Shown: one piece after another, positions 24,207 to 33,775 of the stretch
Layout: each line of letters opens with the position of its first letter
How positions within the stretch are numbered: position 1 is the stretch's first letter
DNA from: Nitrospirae bacterium RBG_16_64_22
GTDB lineage: Bacteria > Nitrospirota > RBG-16-64-22
DNA: 38,304 bases
Assembly (NCBI GenBank): GCA_001803795.1
Contig: MHEK01000094.1
Span: 4,758 to 43,061 of the forward strand
Direction: 5' to 3'
Made by a program: the position numbers and the translations under genes
Notes under the pieces: generated by a model
Seen by the model: only the letters and a program-made list of their open reading frames with translations
Database searches by the model: none
What the model was told of the DNA's origin: nothing

Positions 24207-24235
24207 TTGACATTATCCTAGACTCTAGATACAAT
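24207..24235 (+). promoter_or_regulatory. Near-consensus sigma70-type promoter for the molybdoenzyme operon
   Basis: TTGACA (24207-24212), 17-nt spacer, TACAAT (24230-24235); ctaga-c-tctag inverted repeat inside the spacer (24218-24228). Confidence 0.65.
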
Positions 24236-24389
24236 ATATGCGGTTATCTTCTGCAATGAGTGAAGCTCCGTCGAGAGCTTGACGCTTCAATCCCGATCGG
24301 TTGATTCCCCCCGGCTTTCCGCACCCGCGGAGGATCTTGAGTCGGAAATGCTCCCAGTCATGCAACCACAGGCATTCTTGATTATCTTG

Positions 24390-24420
24390 ACGACGTCGTT
24401 CATGCCTCCGCTGAGGCATG
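24390..24420. promoter_or_regulatory. Palindrome plus adjacent hairpin in the operon leader
   Basis: acgacgtcgt (24390-24399) and catgcctc-cgct-gaggcatg (24401-24420). Confidence 0.5.
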
Positions 24421-24495
24421 TTGGTCTTGCGATGTTTGAAGAAGTTCGAGATACCGGAGCGTCGACGGTTGAGCATCTTTCAGGAGGGCCATCGT

Positions 24496-27420
24496 ATGAA
24501 GCTGCTTGAGAATTCCCTAACGCGGCGGACTTTCCTCAAGGTTTCTGGGACGATTGCGGTACTCTCGCAAATCCAGCCGGTGAGCGCGCAAGAGTGGCTC
24601 GCGCAAGTGGGCAAGTCCGGTTCCAAGCCGGATATGGTGGGCGACGGCGCCAAGATCGTGCGCAGCGTCTGCCTGATGTGCCACAGCGGTTGCGGCATTC
24701 AGTGCACCATCGTGAACGGCGAGCTGGTCAAGATCGACGGCAACCCCTATCACCCGAACACCTACGATTACGTGTCCAAGGGAGACATCGTCGAGGAAAG
24801 CGATCTCGACGGCGGCCTTGGCGGCAAGGACGTCGGCACGCTCTGCGCGAAAGGCCAGGCAGGCATCTACGCGCTCTACAGCCCGGCGCGCCTCAAACAT
24901 CCGCTCAAGCGAGTCGGGCCACGCGGGTCCGGGAAATGGAAAACCATCTCGTGGGACCAGGCGCTGAAAGAGATCACCGAGGGCGGCCTGCTCTTCAAGG
25001 GCGTGCCCGGCGAGGAGAAACGATTCGTCGAGGGCCTCAAGTCAATTCTGAACAACGATGCACCCCTCGGTCCCGAAGATTCGGACTACATGGACGAGGC
25101 GCCGCCCGAAGGCTGGGGCCCGAAGCGCAACCAGTTCGTGTGGGCGCACGGGCGCAACGAGCAGTCGCCGCTGACTCCGCGCTTCGTCGCTGGCGCGGCG
25201 GGGGTTCCGAACATGCTCAATCACTGCGACCGTTGCGCGGGAACCTTCTACAACGTCGTAGAGCACACGCTGAACGTGCCGCCTTACGAGATCGGCGCCT
25301 ATGCCGATTACGAGTACTGCACGTACCTCATCAGCGTGGGATCCAACATCACCCACGCCGATTACCCCGGGCAGACCCGGGCGCGTTACCTGCAAAAGTT
25401 TGCCAAACGCACCGGGCCTGACGCCAAGCTGTTCAAGCACGTCGTGGTGGACCCGTGGCTTTCCCCCGCCGCGGCAAAAACGCTCCAGTCCGGCAAGGGC
25501 GAGTGGATCCCGCTCAAGCCTTCGACCGACGCTTACTTCCTGGTGGGGATGATCCGCTGGATGATCGAGAGCAAGGCCTACAAGGCCGACTTCCTCGCGC
25601 TGCCGAACCAGCAGGCGGCGAAGAAGACCGGCCGTCGTAACTGGACCGACATGACCTACCTGGTCAGGACCAAGGAGCCCAAGCTGTATCTCACGGGCAG
25701 GGATGCGGGGCTGGGCCAGGCCGACTACGTTGTGCTGGTGGGCGGTAAGCCCACGCTGTTCCACGAAGTCGATGGGCCGGCCGACCTCGATGCCGAGGTC
25801 GAGATCAAGGGCGAGAAGTACAAGACGGTATTCCGCCTGCTGCGTGAGCGCGCGCAGGAGAAATCGCTGGAAGAGTGCGAGCGGGAATGCGACATTCCTG
25901 CCGGCACGATTGCGCATCTGGGGAAGGAGTTTTCCAGCGCCAAGCGGCCGGTGATCGAGATGTTCCGCGGCCCCATTCAGCAGTCGAACGGCTGGTATAA
26001 TGGCCAGGCATTGTGCATCCTCAACATGATGGTGGACAACATCGACCGCAAGGGCGGCTACATTCCCGGGCACAAGGCATACGCCGGCGACGTGAAAGGG
26101 CCCGGCCGCAAACCGAGCGGTGTTTCGGTGGATCGGCACAAGGACAAGTATCAGGGCAAGAAGCCGGTTTCCACGCGTCCGTGGTACCCGCTGGCGGTGC
26201 GTACCGTGACCAGCGAGTTTTTCTCGGCCGCAAAGATGGGTTATCCGTATCGCATCAAGGCCTACCTGAACTACTACAACGACCCGGCCTATACCCAGCC
26301 GTTCAACGCCCCGGTCATCGAGGCACTGCTCGACCTGAGAGCCATGCCGCTCACCTTCAGCATCGACGCCTACATGGGCGAAACCAGCCAACTGTGCGAC
26401 TACGTCCTGCCGGACACCGAATACCTCGAGCGCATCGGCGGCTTCAAGACCTACCCGCCTGTCAAGACGCGGGTCCAGGCCCTGCGGCAGCCGGTGATCG
26501 GCACCCTCGATCCGAAGACCAAGAACTACCGCGGCATCCATCCGGACGTGCAGACGGCGGACGATACGCTCATCCAGCTTGCCCTGCGTTGCGGCTTGCC
26601 GGGCTTCGGCAAGGATGGCGGCGGCCCAGGTGTCGACCTGTTCAACTCCTGGCAGTTCTGGAACGAGTTCTACAAGAACGGCGACTTCAAGGGCGAGCCG
26701 GGGCTGGATCCGGACAGCCGCCTGGTCAAGCTCGGCGGCAAGTTCGAGAACCCGGGCAAGCAGTACGAGGGCGACTACACGCGCTTCCCGGGTGGCCGGC
26801 AGGTGCGCGGCCTGCTGGCCTACGCCGCAAACGTGGCGGCGAACAAGAACAGCATGACGGGCAAGTTCTACGATGGTCTGCCGCTATACCGGTTCATCAT
26901 CGACTGCAAGGAGCAGCCGCTGGATCCCGCCCTGTGGAAGGAGTACCCGTTCCAGCTCCATACCCACAAGGATGCCTGGCACACCCAGACGCGCACCATG
27001 AACAACCTGTGGCTGGCCTCGATCAAGCCGCAGAACTACGCGGAGATGAATCCGGCCGACGCGCAGAAACTCGGCGTGGTGACCGGCGACTGGGTCAAGG
27101 TCAAATCGCCTTCGAGCAAGCACATCCCGTTCGTGGAGGTTTCCATGGGCGATGGCTGGTACAAGATGCAGGTGCGCGTCACCAGCCGCATCCGGCCCGG
27201 CGTCTTCTCGGTGAGCCAGTCCTACGGGCGCTGGGGCGCCGGAGGGAGAGCCTGGGCCGCGAACGGCAAGCCGCAATACAACGATAAGCGCATCGGCGCG
27301 GGCTACAGCATCAACCCGCTGTACATGGCAGACCCCGTCCTGGGGGACCGTTGCCTGATCGACCCGGTGGCGGGCGGCACCCAGAGCTATGGGACGCCGC
27401 TCCGTGTAGAAAAAGTCTAA
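24496..27420 (+). CDS. Tat-exported molybdopterin oxidoreductase catalytic subunit (DMSO reductase superfamily)
   Basis: AGGAGG RBS; MKLLENSLTRRTFLKVSG twin-arginine signal; CLMCHSGCGIQCTIVNGELVKIDGNPYHP...LCAKGQAGIYALYSPARLKHPLKRVG; C-terminal molybdopterin dinucleotide-binding region. Confidence 0.93.
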   Translation: MKLLENSLTRRTFLKVSGTIAVLSQIQPVSAQEWLAQVGKSGSKPDMVGDGAKIVRSVCLMCHSGCGIQCTIVNGELVKIDGNPYHPNTYDYVSKGDIVEESDLDGGLGGKDVGTLCAKGQAGIYALYSPARLKHPLKRVGPRGSGKWKTISWDQALKEITEGGLLFKGVPGEEKRFVEGLKSILNNDAPLGPEDSDYMDEAPPEGWGPKRNQFVWAHGRNEQSPLTPRFVAGAAGVPNMLNHCDRCAGTFYNVVEHTLNVPPYEIGAYADYEYCTYLISVGSNITHADYPGQTRARYLQKFAKRTGPDAKLFKHVVVDPWLSPAAAKTLQSGKGEWIPLKPSTDAYFLVGMIRWMIESKAYKADFLALPNQQAAKKTGRRNWTDMTYLVRTKEPKLYLTGRDAGLGQADYVVLVGGKPTLFHEVDGPADLDAEVEIKGEKYKTVFRLLRERAQEKSLEECERECDIPAGTIAHLGKEFSSAKRPVIEMFRGPIQQSNGWYNGQALCILNMMVDNIDRKGGYIPGHKAYAGDVKGPGRKPSGVSVDRHKDKYQGKKPVSTRPWYPLAVRTVTSEFFSAAKMGYPYRIKAYLNYYNDPAYTQPFNAPVIEALLDLRAMPLTFSIDAYMGETSQLCDYVLPDTEYLERIGGFKTYPPVKTRVQALRQPVIGTLDPKTKNYRGIHPDVQTADDTLIQLALRCGLPGFGKDGGGPGVDLFNSWQFWNEFYKNGDFKGEPGLDPDSRLVKLGGKFENPGKQYEGDYTRFPGGRQVRGLLAYAANVAANKNSMTGKFYDGLPLYRFIIDCKEQPLDPALWKEYPFQLHTHKDAWHTQTRTMNNLWLASIKPQNYAEMNPADAQKLGVVTGDWVKVKSPSSKHIPFVEVSMGDGWYKMQVRVTSRIRPGVFSVSQSYGRWGAGGRAWAANGKPQYNDKRIGAGYSINPLYMADPVLGDRCLIDPVAGGTQSYGTPLRVEKV

Positions 27421-27430
27421 GGAGGACATC

Positions 27431-28057
27431 ATGTCTGAATACAGCCCCGTCATTCCCCGCGAAGCCGTCGACCGGTCCTTTGCCAAGCAGGGCCCGAAGC
27501 AATATACGCTGTGGGTCGACATCGAGCATTGCATCGGCTGTAATGCCTGCACGATGGCCTGCAAGGCGGAGAACAACACGCCCATCGGCGTGGATTACAA
27601 CCGCGTGATCGAGATCGAGGAGGGTGATTTCCGCGATCCGCGGAAGGCGCCCAACGTCGGCGTCACCTTTGTGCCGATGCCCTGCATGCACTGCGGGCGG
27701 CCGGCCTGCCAGGCCGCCTGCCCGGTGGGCGCGATTACCAAGCGCAAGCAAGACGGCATCGTCCTCATCAACAAGGACAAGTGTATCGGCTGCCGCTACT
27801 GCGCCTGGGCTTGCCCTTACGGCGCGCCGCAGTTCAACGCGGAGGCGAAGATCATGGAGAAATGCACGCTGTGCGTCCATCGCGTCGAGAAAGGGCAGCT
27901 GCCCGCGTGTGTCAACACATGCCCCGCCAAGGTGAGGTTCTTCGGGGAGCTCAACGAGATCACGGTGCTCATGCGGGAGAAGCGCGCGCGCAGCTTCAGC
28001 ATCAGCGTCGCCGGAGCGGATACGAAACCGAGCGTGCAGTACACGATCCCCAGATAG
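27431..28057 (+). CDS. Four-cluster 4Fe-4S electron transfer subunit (DmsB/NrfC/TtrB type)
   Basis: CIGCNACTMACKAEN, CMHCGRPACQAACPVGAI, CIGCRYCAWACPYGAP, CTLCVHRVEKGQLPACVNTCP. Confidence 0.93.
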   Translation: MSEYSPVIPREAVDRSFAKQGPKQYTLWVDIEHCIGCNACTMACKAENNTPIGVDYNRVIEIEEGDFRDPRKAPNVGVTFVPMPCMHCGRPACQAACPVGAITKRKQDGIVLINKDKCIGCRYCAWACPYGAPQFNAEAKIMEKCTLCVHRVEKGQLPACVNTCPAKVRFFGELNEITVLMREKRARSFSISVAGADTKPSVQYTIPR

Positions 28058-28066
28058 CGGAGAGTT

Positions 28067-29260
28067 GTGTCGGCCGTGAACATGGACAACATTGTCGAGA
28101 TCCAGTGCGAGCCGCCGGTGCGCGTGGAGAACGAGCTGTGCTCGCGTTTCCGCTGCACGAAGTCGCAATGCGCGGCGTGCGCGGCCGTATGTCCGGTGCC
28201 GCGGGCCGTCCGCTTTGTCGAGCAGGGTGTCGAAATCACCGGCGCGTGCATTGCGTGTGACGCCTGCGCCTCGGCTTGCCCGAACGGGGCGATCCAACCT
28301 GCGGAGAGCGACCGGCGGCTGGCAGAACGCATGCGCGAGCGCGTACGGCCCCCGGCGGGATTCCGCATTGGCTGCGAGCGGGCGGAAGGTCCGGCAGATT
28401 TCGTCGTGCCTTGCTTGAGTCGTCTCACCGAAGCGGTCCTCCTGGAGCCGATTCGATGCGGGGCGGAGCGTGTCGAACTCCTCGCTCCTGACTGCTCGGG
28501 CTGCCAGCTTGAGAGGGCCGCGCCTCAGTGGGGGATGGTCCTGAACCTCGCGCGCGCCCTCTGCGAATCGGCGGGGTTCGACGCGGACCGCATTGTCCGG
28601 ACCGATGCGCCGAGGCGAAAGCGGGAGATGACGCGCATTCCTCTCAGTGCTCCCGGCTCGCGGCGCGCGATGTTCCGTGCCTTCGCCAAATGGACGGCGA
28701 AGACCGCTGCCGCGGCCATGCCGGATGCGGCGCCGGAGCAGACGGCGGCCGAGGCGTTCCGCGCCATCGTGCAGCGCCATCCGGAGAATCCCAAGAGGTC
28801 TCACTTGCTGGAGGTGTTGCAGAGTCTCCCCGGCGCCGAAGCGCAGCCGACAGTGGTTCCCGCCGCGGGAAAACCCTTCGCCCACCTTGAAGTCACCCCC
28901 GGGTGCGCGGGCTGCAACGTTTGCGAAACCCTCTGTCCCGTGGGTGCCCTCCGCCGCCGTGGAGAGAACGGTACATTTGCCCTCGACTTTGACCCCGCGC
29001 TGTGTACCGGGTGCCGCGTTTGTGAGGTTGCTTGCTTTCACAAGGCCGTTCGCGTTCGGGAAACGGTCGACCTCTCGGTTCTGTTTGAACGCCAGAGCGC
29101 CACGCTCATTTCCGCGACGCGGCGCACCTGCCGAGCCTGCCACGAGACCTTCCTGGGCGACGCATCGGAGTTCTGCCCGTCCTGTCTCGTCAGCGGCGAT
29201 CGTCGCGATGCGATCGCCAGGCGCTTCTTTCTGGGAGGAAATAGGGGTGATTGGTCATAA
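28067..29260 (+). CDS. Multi-cluster ferredoxin-like protein with C-terminal zinc-ribbon-like motif
   Basis: CSRFRCTKSQCAACAAVCP, CIACDACASACP, CSGC, CAGCNVCETLCPVGAL, CTGCRVCEVACFHKAV, CRACHETFLGDASEFCPSC. Confidence 0.8.
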   Translation: MSAVNMDNIVEIQCEPPVRVENELCSRFRCTKSQCAACAAVCPVPRAVRFVEQGVEITGACIACDACASACPNGAIQPAESDRRLAERMRERVRPPAGFRIGCERAEGPADFVVPCLSRLTEAVLLEPIRCGAERVELLAPDCSGCQLERAAPQWGMVLNLARALCESAGFDADRIVRTDAPRRKREMTRIPLSAPGSRRAMFRAFAKWTAKTAAAAMPDAAPEQTAAEAFRAIVQRHPENPKRSHLLEVLQSLPGAEAQPTVVPAAGKPFAHLEVTPGCAGCNVCETLCPVGALRRRGENGTFALDFDPALCTGCRVCEVACFHKAVRVRETVDLSVLFERQSATLISATRRTCRACHETFLGDASEFCPSCLVSGDRRDAIARRFFLGGNRGDWS

Positions 29261-29933
29261 GGAAATGCAGGCCGTCGCGGCGGGGCGGGCGAAGACCTAC
29301 GCGGTTCTCTCCGCGCTCTATTCGGTGCCGCCGTCGGAGGACCTGACGGCCATGATCCGAGCGGGCGCTCTTGTCGAGGAGGGGGCCTCTTCCCTCGGCG
29401 CGGCGGCGAAGGACCTGACCGCCGCCTTCCGCGATGCTGTCCTGGAGGATCGTCCGAACAACGAGCTTACGGCTGAACACACGCGTTTGTTCGTCCTGCC
29501 TTCCGGCGTGGTGCCCCACGAGTCGTTCTACCTTGACGAGAACAAGCGCGTGGGCGGTCGGGTGACGGTGGAGGTGCGGCGATATTACCAAGACGCCGCG
29601 GCCCAGATGACCAGCGCCTGCCTGGAGCTGCCCGACCACATGGGCGTCGAGCTGGAGTTCATGAAGTTCCTTTGCGAGATCGAGGAACAGTTCTGGAAGG
29701 AACCCAATCCGGACGGGCTGCAGAGGTGCCTTGATTTCCAGCACGGCTTTCTCACCGAGCACCTGTTGCGCTGGCACAGGCTCCTTTGCGAGAGGGTGAT
29801 CGCCGAGACGACGGCGGACGTGTACCGGGCAGTCGCCCGCCTCACCGTCGAGTTTCTGGAGGCCGAGCGGGCATTTGTGCCGGCATTGACCGAGGGAATT
29901 CGCTCCGAATGGAGGACAACATGCGAATCCTAG
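29247..29933 (+). CDS. TorD/DmsD-like molybdoenzyme chaperone
   Basis: RAKTYAVLSALYSVPPSEDL...EHTRLFVLPSGVVPHESFYLDE...ACLELPDHMGVELEFMKFLCEIEEQF; position beside the molybdoenzyme genes. Confidence 0.85.
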   Translation: MIGHKEMQAVAAGRAKTYAVLSALYSVPPSEDLTAMIRAGALVEEGASSLGAAAKDLTAAFRDAVLEDRPNNELTAEHTRLFVLPSGVVPHESFYLDENKRVGGRVTVEVRRYYQDAAAQMTSACLELPDHMGVELEFMKFLCEIEEQFWKEPNPDGLQRCLDFQHGFLTEHLLRWHRLLCERVIAETTADVYRAVARLTVEFLEAERAFVPALTEGIRSEWRTTCES

Positions 29934-30484
29934 TTGTAATCTTTGCGTGCCTGGCCCTCGCCTCGACGGCCGTGCCGGCGCTGGAACCCCAGACCCCCAT
30001 CGACTGGCCGCCGAAAGCAGTTCCCAACCAGCAGAAGGGCAAGGTTCCGGACTTCACCGGCAAGAACGCGCTCTGCCTCGCCTGCCACGGGTACATCATG
30101 GACGTGAAGACCGCACGCAAGAACGTTCCCAACCTGCACCGTCTGCACCTGGAATCGAAGAAGACCGCCTACCAGGGCGAGAACCGCGCCTGCCTCACCT
30201 GTCACGAGATGCACGCCCCCTCGGAAGAGAAGGAGCGCAAGCAAGAGGGCTGGTTCGTCATGGCCGACGTGTATCACCCCAATGCGCTGCTCGCTCCTGC
30301 GGGCTTTTGGAAGAAACTGATTGTGCGTCCGGGTGAGGGCGCGCAATACACCCGCGTCGAGGCGCTCCGGCCGGCGGATCCCCATCCGTACAAGCCCACG
30401 CTGAAACGCCTGGTCTGCGCCCAGTGCCACGGCCTCGACAGCAAGATCAAGACGTTCTACGGCGCGCCCGCGGGAGCCAATTAG
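29921..30484 (+). CDS. Exported triheme c-type cytochrome
   Basis: Signal peptide MRILVVIFACLALASTAVPA; CLACH, CLTCH, CAQCH. Confidence 0.88.
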   Translation: MRILVVIFACLALASTAVPALEPQTPIDWPPKAVPNQQKGKVPDFTGKNALCLACHGYIMDVKTARKNVPNLHRLHLESKKTAYQGENRACLTCHEMHAPSEEKERKQEGWFVMADVYHPNALLAPAGFWKKLIVRPGEGAQYTRVEALRPADPHPYKPTLKRLVCAQCHGLDSKIKTFYGAPAGAN

Positions 30485-30568
30485 CGCGGGTCACAGCGCG
30501 GCTCTCGGGCGGCAGCCGCACCCGGGAAGCCGGCCTCGGGCGGATCTCGGCTGGATTGGACAGGCATC

Positions 30569-32380
30569 GTGCGTCAAGCGAGTTACATCAGGCGGAGCAC
30601 TCCGGCGGTCGCCCTGATCGTGGGGTGGGTGCTCCTGGGCGGCGGAACCGTCGTCCAGGCGCAGGAGGCCGCTCCCGCCGAAAAGAGAGCCGGGGCCGCG
30701 GTTCAGCCGCACCGCGCTACGCCGGGCGGGGAAGTCCTGCGGCGGCTGCAGGAGCTGGAGGCCCAGGTCGCCCAATTCCAGGAGGAAATCGCAAGGCTTC
30801 GGGCGGAGCTTGCCCAGAAACAGGGGCCCGCGGCGGTGTCTCCCGTCCAGCAGAAGCCGGCCGCGGCCAAGGACGCGGCCGGCGGCGAGTGGGACGAGCC
30901 GGAAGTGGACAAGAAGCAGGAGGGGCGCGACGAGGAAGCCCGGCGGCGGCTCATGGCGCTCGAAACCCAAATGCGCAAGTTCTCCGCGGAGGCCGCCAAG
31001 CTGCAGGAAGCACTCCGGCAGAAAACCAACTTCGACTTCTCCGGCAAGTACAAGGCGCGCGTCAATTCGCGCCACAACTTCAACCTGGAGAACCCGCTGC
31101 AACAGTGGGAGTTCGACAGCGCCACCTACTTCGACCACCGCTTCCAGCTCCAGATCGACGCTTCCCATGAGGTCTTCCTGACCCGCCTCGTGCTGGACAA
31201 GGGCAACTTCGTCTTCGACTGGAAGGAGGACAGCGAGGGGACGCTGGAGCGCTGGGGCCAGTTCCAGACCGTCGGCGCCCCGCTGGTGCGCGAACTCTTC
31301 GTCCAATACACAGGGCCCTTCATGCTGCGCATCGGCCGCCAGAACTGGGACGTAGGGCGGGCGCTCACCTTGGAGGGCCCGATGGACGCGGTGCGTTTCC
31401 AGTACCCCCTGGGTCAACTGCCCTGGGGCCAGACCAGCTTCAGCGCCGGCTACATGGGTGTCGCCGGCGGCTGGCGCAACTACTCGAAGTTCCGCGAATC
31501 GGGCCCGCCGGCCGGATCGCGCGACGACCTCTTCAGCGCTTCTAACAAGCTGGACGCCTACTACCTGGATCTCGACATTCGCCCGTCGCGGGCCTTGCGG
31601 TTGCGGCCCTACCTGTTGAAGGCGGGTGACCGCGGCGGGCTCGGTGACGCGGACCTGAACCTGGACAAGGATTTCAACGCCGCCACCGCGCCGCGCGACG
31701 GCCGCTTCGAGCCGCTGTGGGCCGGGGTAGCCGCCTCTGCCGATCTGAAGAGATGGAAGTTCGACGCGGAAGCGGTCTCGCTCTCGGGCGACTACACCCA
31801 GGACCGCAAGGTCAGCGCCAACGCGTTGCTGCTCAAGGCCGCGCGCGACTTCGGCAAGGTCGGCTCCCTGAGGAACCTGGCGATGGGGCTCGAGTTCGGC
31901 CGCGGCTCGGGCAACGGAACGGCCGACGCCTCCACCGGCACGCTGCGCAACTTCAACGCGCTTTTCCTCTGCCGCGACCGGCATAAGTTCGGCAACATCT
32001 TCAGCGAGGACCTGCGCGCAGGCTACTTCCTGTGGGATAGCAACCTATCCAACATCACCTATGTACGCCTGGACGGGCCCTTCGAGCCCCTCAAGGACCT
32101 GAAGCTCAGGCCTGCGGTCGCACGCATCTGGACCACCGAGGAAGTGTTCGCGGGCCGCGGTCCTGTGTTCGACTGGAGCCGCGGCACGGCCACCTCCACG
32201 CGCAGGACCAAGGACGTGGGATGGGAGATCGACTTCGACGGCACCTATCCCCTGTTGCCGAAACTCGAAGGTTTCTTCTCCTTGGGCTACTTCCGCCCGG
32301 GGGCGGTGTATGCCCGCGCTGACGGCAACATTCCCAAGCGTGCCTTCGAAGTCATTCTCGGCGTGGAGTTCGGGTTCTGA
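30569..32380 (+). CDS. Outer-membrane porin-like protein with N-terminal coiled coil
   Basis: Signal peptide; coiled coil LRRLQELEAQVAQFQEEIARLRAEL; beta-barrel-like alternation (FDFSGKYKARVNSRHNFN..., FMLRIGRQNWDVGRAL), C-terminal AFEVILGVEFGF ending in Phe. Confidence 0.8.
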   Translation: MRQASYIRRSTPAVALIVGWVLLGGGTVVQAQEAAPAEKRAGAAVQPHRATPGGEVLRRLQELEAQVAQFQEEIARLRAELAQKQGPAAVSPVQQKPAAAKDAAGGEWDEPEVDKKQEGRDEEARRRLMALETQMRKFSAEAAKLQEALRQKTNFDFSGKYKARVNSRHNFNLENPLQQWEFDSATYFDHRFQLQIDASHEVFLTRLVLDKGNFVFDWKEDSEGTLERWGQFQTVGAPLVRELFVQYTGPFMLRIGRQNWDVGRALTLEGPMDAVRFQYPLGQLPWGQTSFSAGYMGVAGGWRNYSKFRESGPPAGSRDDLFSASNKLDAYYLDLDIRPSRALRLRPYLLKAGDRGGLGDADLNLDKDFNAATAPRDGRFEPLWAGVAASADLKRWKFDAEAVSLSGDYTQDRKVSANALLLKAARDFGKVGSLRNLAMGLEFGRGSGNGTADASTGTLRNFNALFLCRDRHKFGNIFSEDLRAGYFLWDSNLSNITYVRLDGPFEPLKDLKLRPAVARIWTTEEVFAGRGPVFDWSRGTATSTRRTKDVGWEIDFDGTYPLLPKLEGFFSLGYFRPGAVYARADGNIPKRAFEVILGVEFGF

Positions 32381-32382
32381 TC

Positions 32383-32478
32383 ATGCAACGGATTCACTTT
32401 GTCACGCTGTTCCTGTGCGGATGCTTCCTGTCCGCGCCGCCCACGGATGCGGATTTTGAAAGCCGATTTTTCCAGTGA
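32383..32478 (+). CDS. 31-aa putative lipoprotein/secreted small ORF
   Basis: MQRIHFVTLFLCGCFLSAPPTDADFESRFFQ*, 2 nt after the porin stop; hydrophobic stretch and Cys residues. Confidence 0.4.
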   Translation: MQRIHFVTLFLCGCFLSAPPTDADFESRFFQ

Positions 32479-32491
32479 AGGGAGGGTAGTC

Positions 32492-33424
32492 TTGAAACAT
32501 CTTCTAGTTGTTGTTCTTGTTGTGTGGAGCTCTCTCGGCTGGGCCGACGACGCGTCGATCGTGCGGATCACCCAGATCGACGGCAACGTCGAAATCCGCA
32601 GGAGCGGCGCCCACGACTGGAAGCCTGCGAAGGAGGGCGATGTCCTCGACCGCGGCGACCGCCTTGCCGCCAAGGACAAGTCAGCCGCCCTGCTTCTCTG
32701 GTCGAATGGCAGCATGGTGAAGGTCTATCCCAACACCGAGATCGCGCTGGGGGGAGTGAATTTCGACCTGGAGAAGAAAATGGAAAAGACGATCCTGGAT
32801 ATGGAGAAGGGGCGCATTTTCGTCAAGGCACAGGTACCAGAACACCTGTTCTGCGAATTCAAGGTCCGCATGGGAACGCTTTATGTGGCGACCCAGGGGG
32901 CGGAATGCGCCGTGGCGCACGATCCGGACAAGAAGAGCTACACGGCCTGGTCTCTGATCGGCGGATTGATTACGGACGTCGGCACCGAACGTATCCGGAT
33001 CGACGAGGGCCACCAGGGCACGATCCGCGCGGGGATCAAACCGACGAAGGGCGACGTAACGGCGATGGGTGAGAATATCAAACAGTCACTGACGAAAGTC
33101 TCCAAGGATCTCGGCGGCAGTCTGCTTACGGAGGATCTGGCTGGGGCCGCCGGCGGAAAACTCGCCGCGAAAATCGGTGGAGTGGCCAATCGTCGCGGCA
33201 ATGCGCCTTTCAAGGTGAACTTCAAGGCCATGATCAAGGGCGGCAGCGGAAAGATCAAGTCGATCACATGGGATTTCGGCGACGGTGAAGCCGCCGCGAC
33301 GAAGGAGGCCGAGCACACCTTCACGCAGGGGCTGTATGTCATCATCCTGCGCGTCGAGGATGAAAACGGCGACAAGGCCTCCGCTCAGACAAGCATCTCG
33401 GCAGAAGCAGAGTGTGGCTGCTGA
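32492..33424 (+). CDS. Exported FecR-domain protein with C-terminal PKD domain
   Basis: ITQIDGNVEIRRSGAHDWKPAKEGDVLDRGDRLAAKDKSAALLLWSNGSMVKVYPNTEI; ITWDFGDGEAAATKEAEHTFTQGLYVIILRVEDENGD (PKD). Confidence 0.82.
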   Translation: MKHLLVVVLVVWSSLGWADDASIVRITQIDGNVEIRRSGAHDWKPAKEGDVLDRGDRLAAKDKSAALLLWSNGSMVKVYPNTEIALGGVNFDLEKKMEKTILDMEKGRIFVKAQVPEHLFCEFKVRMGTLYVATQGAECAVAHDPDKKSYTAWSLIGGLITDVGTERIRIDEGHQGTIRAGIKPTKGDVTAMGENIKQSLTKVSKDLGGSLLTEDLAGAAGGKLAAKIGGVANRRGNAPFKVNFKAMIKGGSGKIKSITWDFGDGEAAATKEAEHTFTQGLYVIILRVEDENGDKASAQTSISAEAECGC

Positions 33425-33454: not shown

Positions 33455-33775
33455 ATGGGCATCGCCATGCTCTCCGGCTGGATGGAAGGCGAGGGCGGGG
33501 AGGCGCCGCCGGCCGTCGTCGGGGGGATCTTCATCGCGATCGCCCTGATCGGCATTCTCCTGACCCTCGCGTACGCGTCCCTCTTGGCTGTCGCCGGCCG
33601 GTTCCTCTCCAGGCGGAAACATCGCATCTTTTGCTTCGTCACAGCCGGATTGTCGCTTCTCTTCGCCCCGCTCGGCACGGCCCTCGGGGTCTTCACGATC
33701 ATCGTCCTCATGCGCGACTCCGTCCGGCTCCTCTTCGAGCCAGGCGCGCCGGAGGGAAGCGGATCGGCAGGATGA
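33455..33775 (+). CDS. Small hypothetical membrane protein
   Basis: Hydrophobic segments VVGGIFIAIALIGILLTLAYASLLAVAG and FCFVTAGLSLLFAPLGTALGVFTIIVLM. Confidence 0.5.
   Translation: MGIAMLSGWMEGEGGEAPPAVVGGIFIAIALIGILLTLAYASLLAVAGRFLSRRKHRIFCFVTAGLSLLFAPLGTALGVFTIIVLMRDSVRLLFEPGAPEGSGSAG

Follow-up and report, generated by a model that had tools for sequence, protein, structure and literature searches.

Relatives of the molybdoenzymes TtrA, SrdA, PsrA and SrrA act on sulfur, selenium or arsenic species (PMC7331816), and a survey has described a seemingly novel lineage that is sister to TtrA/SrdA (PMC10100899). For SerABC-type bacteria there is no agreement on the enzyme that carries out the second step of selenate respiration, with reviews naming many unrelated candidates; the sole dedicated respiratory selenite enzyme that those reviews name is Srr, which comes from a Bacillus. 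The window considered here, a stretch of 38,304 nucleotides from the 2.38 Mb metagenome-assembled genome (118 contigs) of Nitrospirae bacterium RBG_16_64_22, contains a molybdoenzyme module that resembles these systems in part. With the TtrABC/SrdBCA/alternative arsenate reductase lineage it shares a Tat-exported molybdenum enzyme (A) with an FS0 cluster, an aligned cysteine in the Mo-ligand column and a four-cluster partner subunit (B), and within the module family the arrangement of B, NrfD and A as neighbours is found, as in the TtrA/SrdA lineage. Unlike members of that lineage, A is at most 36% identical to the nearest sequences found and has an extra Cys/Sec at position 244, and the module has its own TorD, ferredoxin, cytochrome, porin and FecR-PKD protein while lacking an anchor gene at the window locus.

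Gene content of the locus

ORF analysis of the window together with Pfam and NCBIfam matches places seven genes at 24496-33424, all on the + strand, between DUF502 and glmU-like genes upstream and pyk downstream, flanks that agree with those given in an earlier note on this DNA. The catalytic Mo-bisPGD subunit A (24496..27420, 974 amino acids; PF00384, PF01568 and PF04879, above cut-offs) starts at the ATG at 24496 and has a twin-arginine signal, TRRTFLK, and an FS0 [4Fe-4S] motif, C59-x2-C62-x3-C66...C117. A longer open reading frame from 24418 is a mechanical frame only and position 24207 is intergenic. The DmsB-type electron-transfer subunit B (27431..28057; Fer4_11, 1e-29; TIGR02951, 176 bits) has 16 cysteines in four motifs, positioned for four [4Fe-4S] clusters. 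It is followed by a 397-residue cytoplasmic ferredoxin, Fd (28067..29260; Fer4_7 and Fer4, with a NapF-like match at 2e-9), which has two pairs of 4Fe-4S motifs and a C-terminal CxxC...CxxC and in whose sequence no signal peptide was found. Next are a TorD/NarJ-family assembly chaperone (29247..29933; PF02613, 5e-24; TIGR03482, 3e-16) and a periplasmic triheme cytochrome c (29921..30484; PF14537, 4e-7) with exactly three CXXCH motifs, CLACH, CLTCH and CAQCH. The last two genes encode an outer-membrane porin with an N-terminal coiled coil and an AlgE-like barrel (30569..32380; PF13372, 3.5e-13) and a FecR-PKD protein (32492..33424, TTG start; PF04773 and PF18911) with a Sec signal peptide and a C-terminal C-x-C-COOH.

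In gene order the intergenic distances are 10 nt, 9 nt, two overlaps, 84 nt and 111 nt. The earlier note was right about the 84 nt between the cytochrome and porin genes, though not in calling this the only large gap, since the porin and FecR genes are well separated too, unless FecR starts further upstream at the TTG at 32399, which is unlikely. Likewise, the genes are co-directional as it described, but the supported module genes number seven rather than eight. The candidate for an eighth, an ORF of 106 amino acids at 33455-33775, was rejected because it has neither a Pfam or NCBIfam match nor a homologue near any orthologous module. As regards the criteria for a complex iron-sulfur molybdoenzyme (CISM), a Mo-bisPGD subunit with an N-terminal 4Fe-4S domain and a four-cluster subunit are both present; the window locus has no gene for a membrane anchor or quinol dehydrogenase alongside those for A and B.

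A conserved clade of molybdoenzymes

None of the curated models recognises A as a member of its family. The best is TtrA (NF011567) with 359 bits against a cut-off of 1750, followed by PhsA (NF012032; 190 bits, cut-off 694) and ArrA (NF041714; 76 bits, cut-off 1600). In the tree the module A proteins form one clade on a long stem with an SH-aLRT of 100. Its sister, with moderate support (84), is a small number of Desulfacinum-like sequences that branch outside the Proteus TtrA-like and Thalassobacillus SrdA-like rows, these two labels having been assigned from gene order and similarity. The nearest non-orthologous relatives of A are at most 36% identical. Both the NCBIfam scores and the tree thus leave A in no characterised clade, and the proposal that this is a new respiratory module with a molybdoenzyme outside the curated clades is supported, A having its own conserved clade. 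Among the A-like proteins, the TtrA-like L064 and L067 have an arginine in the column of the Mo-ligand cysteine and are possibly non-catalytic or altered in metal binding. On a Citrobacter freundii plasmid (L165, 1573-6968), an operon for a DsrO-like protein, a membrane protein and a molybdoenzyme of the TtrA-like group lies by arsenite-efflux genes; it is possible that this encodes an alternative arsenate reductase.

A scan of the genome collection recovered about 29 A orthologues, 68-94% identical, after which identity drops to 36%. About 20 other genomes have these seven genes, all on one strand and in an unchanged order, with A-B-Fd-TorD-cytochrome-porin-FecR kept at loci with complete flanks. 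Full-order loci occur in 13 Pseudomonadota, six Nitrospirota and one member of the Lindowbacteria, in addition to the window and a congener of its genome, G002. Such recurrence is far beyond chance. The check proposed earlier, whether the gene order recurs, therefore has a clear answer, with the cytochrome, porin and FecR genes travelling with the molybdoenzyme in other genomes. There is some variation: in the Planctomycetota copy the cytochrome gene comes after that for FecR, in the Armatimonadota copy the porin was not detected, and in some loci a small PKD-only protein is encoded before FecR. In Nitrospirota the cytochrome is a different protein that has the C-terminal heme motif in common. 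No description of this module was found in the literature on SerABDC with selenite reduction or on selenate reduction in Nitrospirota.

Within the genus of the window genome the module is patchy, one congener (G001) being without it and the other, G002, having it beside different genes than in the window. The window A is 94% identical to that of a Muproteobacterium as against 86-87% to that of G002, and it nests inside the Pseudomonadota in the tree. This closer relationship to the Muproteobacterium than to the congener, from within the Pseudomonadota, points to horizontal gain of the module by the window genome.

The Cys/Sec-x-x-Cys motif and predicted selenoproteins

The presumed Mo ligand of A is Cys247 (codon 25234..25236, + strand), in the column of the conserved cysteine of TtrA/PsrA/ArrA-like proteins. 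When aligned via the PhsA-like protein of the window genome (G000_C10), it corresponds to chain residue 173 of PsrA (2vpw), a residue known to bind the Mo. Three residues before it is Cys244 (25225..25227, + strand), which is specific to the clade and gives a CxxC or UxxC motif: every module A with coverage has either a cysteine or a TGA codon at position 244, as opposed to T, V, S or G in all outgroup rows. The in-frame TGA at position 244 (codon about 245) is present in seven Nitrospirota orthologues (L048-L051, L058, L060 and L061). In B, six Nitrospirota orthologues (L048-L051, L059 and L107) have an in-frame TGA at codon 88, which in the window encodes Cys88 (27692..27694, + strand), the second cysteine of a 4Fe-4S motif and an Fe-S ligand.

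In all of the TGA copies a hairpin follows the TGA at both sites, within the published consensus limits for a bSECIS (PMC13188914). The SECIS-like hairpin of A has 8 bp and a GUGU loop (25 nt, -7.7 kcal) and that of B 6 bp and a GGUCG loop (29 nt, -9.2 kcal). Synonymous randomisation yielded a hairpin in 4 of 1000 cases for A and 24 of 1000 for B. In the cysteine copies of A the hairpin is absent or weak, with the exception of one close relative; several cysteine copies of B retain a similar hairpin, which makes that of B less strong as evidence. Every TGA-bearing genome has SelA, which is missing from three carriers with cysteine at both positions, and a tRNA-Sec scoring 66-75 bits is present in all of the TGA genomes except G082, where the best match is borderline, only reaching the 47-bit cut-off. 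Pseudogenes or sequencing errors were rejected as an explanation of the TGA codons, since exactly these cysteine positions are common to seven genomes for A and six for B, as was a general recoding of TGA, since ordinary genes in the same loci also end in TGA.

On this evidence the Nitrospirota A and B proteins are predicted to be selenoproteins of two unlisted families, one of them with selenocysteine at an Fe-S ligand position; neither an A-type nor a B-type subunit is among the 119 prokaryotic selenoprotein families tabulated in 2026 (PMC13188914). The predicted Nitrospirota A would resemble selenocysteine-containing FdhA in being a molybdoenzyme selenoprotein. In FdhA, however, the selenocysteine is itself the metal ligand (UHxP), whereas that of the module is three residues before the ligand column, with a second in B. 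Elsewhere in the window genome a further molybdoenzyme frame, 1124 codons long, contains a single in-frame TGA (G000:C75, L007). Given the SelA and tRNA-Sec of this genome, it is probably a selenoprotein such as a formate dehydrogenase.

Genomic neighbours, proposed substrate and mechanism

The window locus has no gene for an NrfD- or NapC-type quinol dehydrogenase. This had been noticed earlier as the lack of any NrfD/DmsC/NapC-type enzyme and holds for the window, but not for the family, in which relatives encode NrfD or NapC/NirT beside the module. The corollary of an obligatory electron supply from a shared cytochrome pool is consequently not supported as a general rule. In the Nitrospirota operon, genes for a tetraheme cytochrome, an Fe-S subunit and NrfD come first, followed directly by A. 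In G002 a separate operon for NrfD, an Fe-S protein (B) and a TtrA-like A protein of 1083 residues (G002:C52, L029:7625-12830) stops about 50 bases upstream of the module; nothing equivalent to this operon was detected in the window genome. Cytochrome c554, NapC/NirT and MoaA are commonly encoded downstream in Pseudomonadota. Divergent to the module or upstream of it are genes for a PhnD-type binding protein, a histidine kinase and a regulator of the NtrC family, which would fit with oxyanion sensing. In the window genome the NrfD genes are located on contigs other than that of the module, while a NapC-like gene shares the contig of the module but is outside the window.

In ten of the 14 Pseudomonadota carriers an A-B-D-C operon for a type II enzyme of the Ser/Clr clade is on the contig of the module. 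It is close downstream in nine and, in Sedimenticola, some 15 kb distant with the same orientation. One of these genomes, G067, has a contig break within the module, with only the FecR end on the type II contig. Pairwise identity among the linked type II A subunits is 79-96%. These subunits are also equally close, at 80-84%, to Ideonella ClrA and to the presumed Sedimenticola SerA, so that their substrate is not nameable from the sequence alone, and the A-subunit tree, in which the forks are poorly supported, fails to separate SerA from ClrA. Chlorate reduction was rejected as the main reading of the linked enzyme and is unlikely, since chlorite dismutase (Cld) is absent from seven of the ten linked genomes and in the other three is on the contig of a separate PcrA-type gene. 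Sedimenticola selenatireducens, which respires selenate, is the one cultured carrier that was found, and its three type II genes have been assigned as ClrA, SerA (with serABDC organisation) and PcrA (PMC5052931). By elimination the copy on the contig of the module would be SerA, as the other two match ClrA (90%) and PcrA with Cld. Among 398 genomes of one order, the Ser/Clr-clade enzyme is found in two and the module in three, which include both enzyme carriers; the sample was centred on a genome chosen as a module carrier and the counts are small, making this supportive rather than a formal test. The linkage is seen only in Pseudomonadota, no Ser/Clr-clade enzyme having been detected in the Nitrospirota, Lindowbacteria, Armatimonadota or Muproteobacteria carriers, or near the module in the window. 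The module and SerABDC/ClrABDC, frequent genomic neighbours that would both supply oxyanion respiration, are nevertheless distinct, with A scoring only 100 of the 985 bits of the type II model TIGR03479.

Two further type II enzymes are present in the window genome. One (G000:C97, L159:5045-8161) is 78% identical to an enzyme in the module-carrying Planctomycetota genome, and the other (G000:C117, L161:4069-6906) is 67% identical to a protein encoded upstream of the module in one of the Rhodocyclales. They were dropped as evidence of co-occurrence because G001 has both enzymes and not the module.

That the module exists, is conserved and is distinct has good support, and it is likely to be a respiratory reductase of a chalcogen oxyanion. 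The earlier statement that the substrate could not be deduced from sequence was too pessimistic, since the gene neighbourhoods, with the Ser/Clr-clade operon on the same contig in most Pseudomonadota carriers, point to selenium oxyanions. The best single guess, with a chance that we put at a little short of even, is that A represents a new periplasmic CISM clade and a putative terminal reductase of selenite (Se(IV) to Se(0)). A fuller version is held more tentatively: the module would encode the dedicated respiratory selenite reductase by which SerABDC-type selenate respiration is brought to completion in Gram-negatives, with Cys/Sec-x-x-Cys at the Mo, with A and B of Nitrospirota as selenoproteins in which the selenocysteine of B is a 4Fe-4S ligand, and with a FecR-PKD CxC that carries or caps the chalcogen product. 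SrrA of Bacillus selenitireducens would share with the module its proposed substrate and the family of Cys-ligated periplasmic Mo enzymes. Against the selenite reading, this known selenite reductase is in the PsrA/PhsA lineage and not in that nearest the module clade (PMC7331816); A is nearer to TtrA-like proteins by tree and scores and has other partners, and SrrA is set apart on the basis of its position in published trees only.

The affinity with TtrA and PhsA, the nearest curated models (359 and 190 bits), could instead indicate a reductase of tetrathionate, thiosulfate or polysulfide whose linkage to selenate reductase is incidental, and several carriers are named for sulfur-metabolising genera (Sulfuritalea, Sulfurisoma). 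This seems unlikely given that all of the scores are far under the family cut-offs, that the Cys244 signature is missing from TtrA-like and PsrA-like proteins and that the linkage to the Ser/Clr-clade operon is repeated. A second selenate (or tellurate) reductase would account for a module that is beside selenate-type genes in some genomes and alone in other phyla, and the related TtrA/SrdA lineage includes the selenate reductase SrdA (PMC7331816). We consider it distinctly unlikely, as a genome with SerABDC has little need of another such enzyme in the same cluster, and the extra active-site Cys/Sec would seem better suited to the thiol chemistry of Se(IV). PhnD-type sensors serve arsenic systems too and an ArsR-family regulator is encoded upstream of the module in Sedimenticola, features that would suit a reductase of arsenate or antimonate, or an enzyme working oxidatively. 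ArrA and an alternative archaeal arsenate reductase are also among the related lineages (PMC7331816), but the ArrA model gives just 76 bits and Sedimenticola does not respire arsenate (PMC5052931), leaving this quite improbable.

Very improbable is an extracellular electron-transfer module like Shewanella dmsEFABGH, in which the porin and cytochrome would form a wire through the outer membrane. The two clusters are alike in combining a molybdoenzyme, Fe-S subunit, chaperone, cytochrome and porin, and the porin and cytochrome genes of the module are adjacent and conserved. The analogy, drawn in the earlier note, finds no support in the proteins themselves. The porin was modelled at a mean pLDDT of 64, with higher values over most of the barrel, as a coiled coil at the N-terminus and a barrel of about 16-18 strands. 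Among solved structures AlgE matches it best (Foldseek E 6e-18) and no MtrB-type conduit is among its 50 best structural matches, which fits a solute or anion channel rather than an electron conduit. The cytochrome is small, with one to three hemes across the family, and a DmsE-type decaheme cytochrome was not found (20 bits against a cut-off of 192). The FecR-PKD protein is a further difference.

In the model of the FecR-PKD protein (pLDDT 84.9) the last residues are left as a tail, and the terminal C-x-C, with C308 and C310 invariant, is present in all intact copies, the Armatimonadota frame running beyond it. Tails of this kind are known in sulfur carriers such as SoxY, and by analogy we speculate that the terminal CxC could bind a chalcogen.

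For the preferred selenite reading, we infer an electron path and roles for the porin and FecR-PKD protein from these features. TorD and the NapF-like ferredoxin would help A and B to mature in the cytoplasm, after which A, with its Tat signal, would carry B across the membrane. Electrons from quinol would exit by way of an NrfD/Fe-S anchor or a NapC/NirT cytochrome, whose genes adjoin the module in relatives and lie elsewhere in the window genome, and pass via small c-type cytochromes to the four clusters of B, then FS0 and the Mo. The substrate would be reduced at the Mo site with the thiol/selenol pair of Cys/Sec244-x-x-Cys247. The AlgE-like porin may pass anions or product through the outer membrane, and the exported FecR-PKD protein may hold or cap the chalcogen product by its terminal CxC. 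In many Pseudomonadota the module would act after a SerABDC-type selenate reductase.

What is new is a conserved seven-gene module with an unclassified molybdoenzyme that is a good candidate for the missing selenite-breathing enzyme. Its position beside a presumed selenate reductase in environmental bacteria lets the question of the selenite step be tested directly with a strain in culture. With the Nitrospirota versions, two predicted selenoprotein families join the 2026 inventory of 119 (PMC13188914), and the invariant Cys244 and the terminal CxC provide simple markers for the module in metagenomes, for example from selenium-polluted groundwater.
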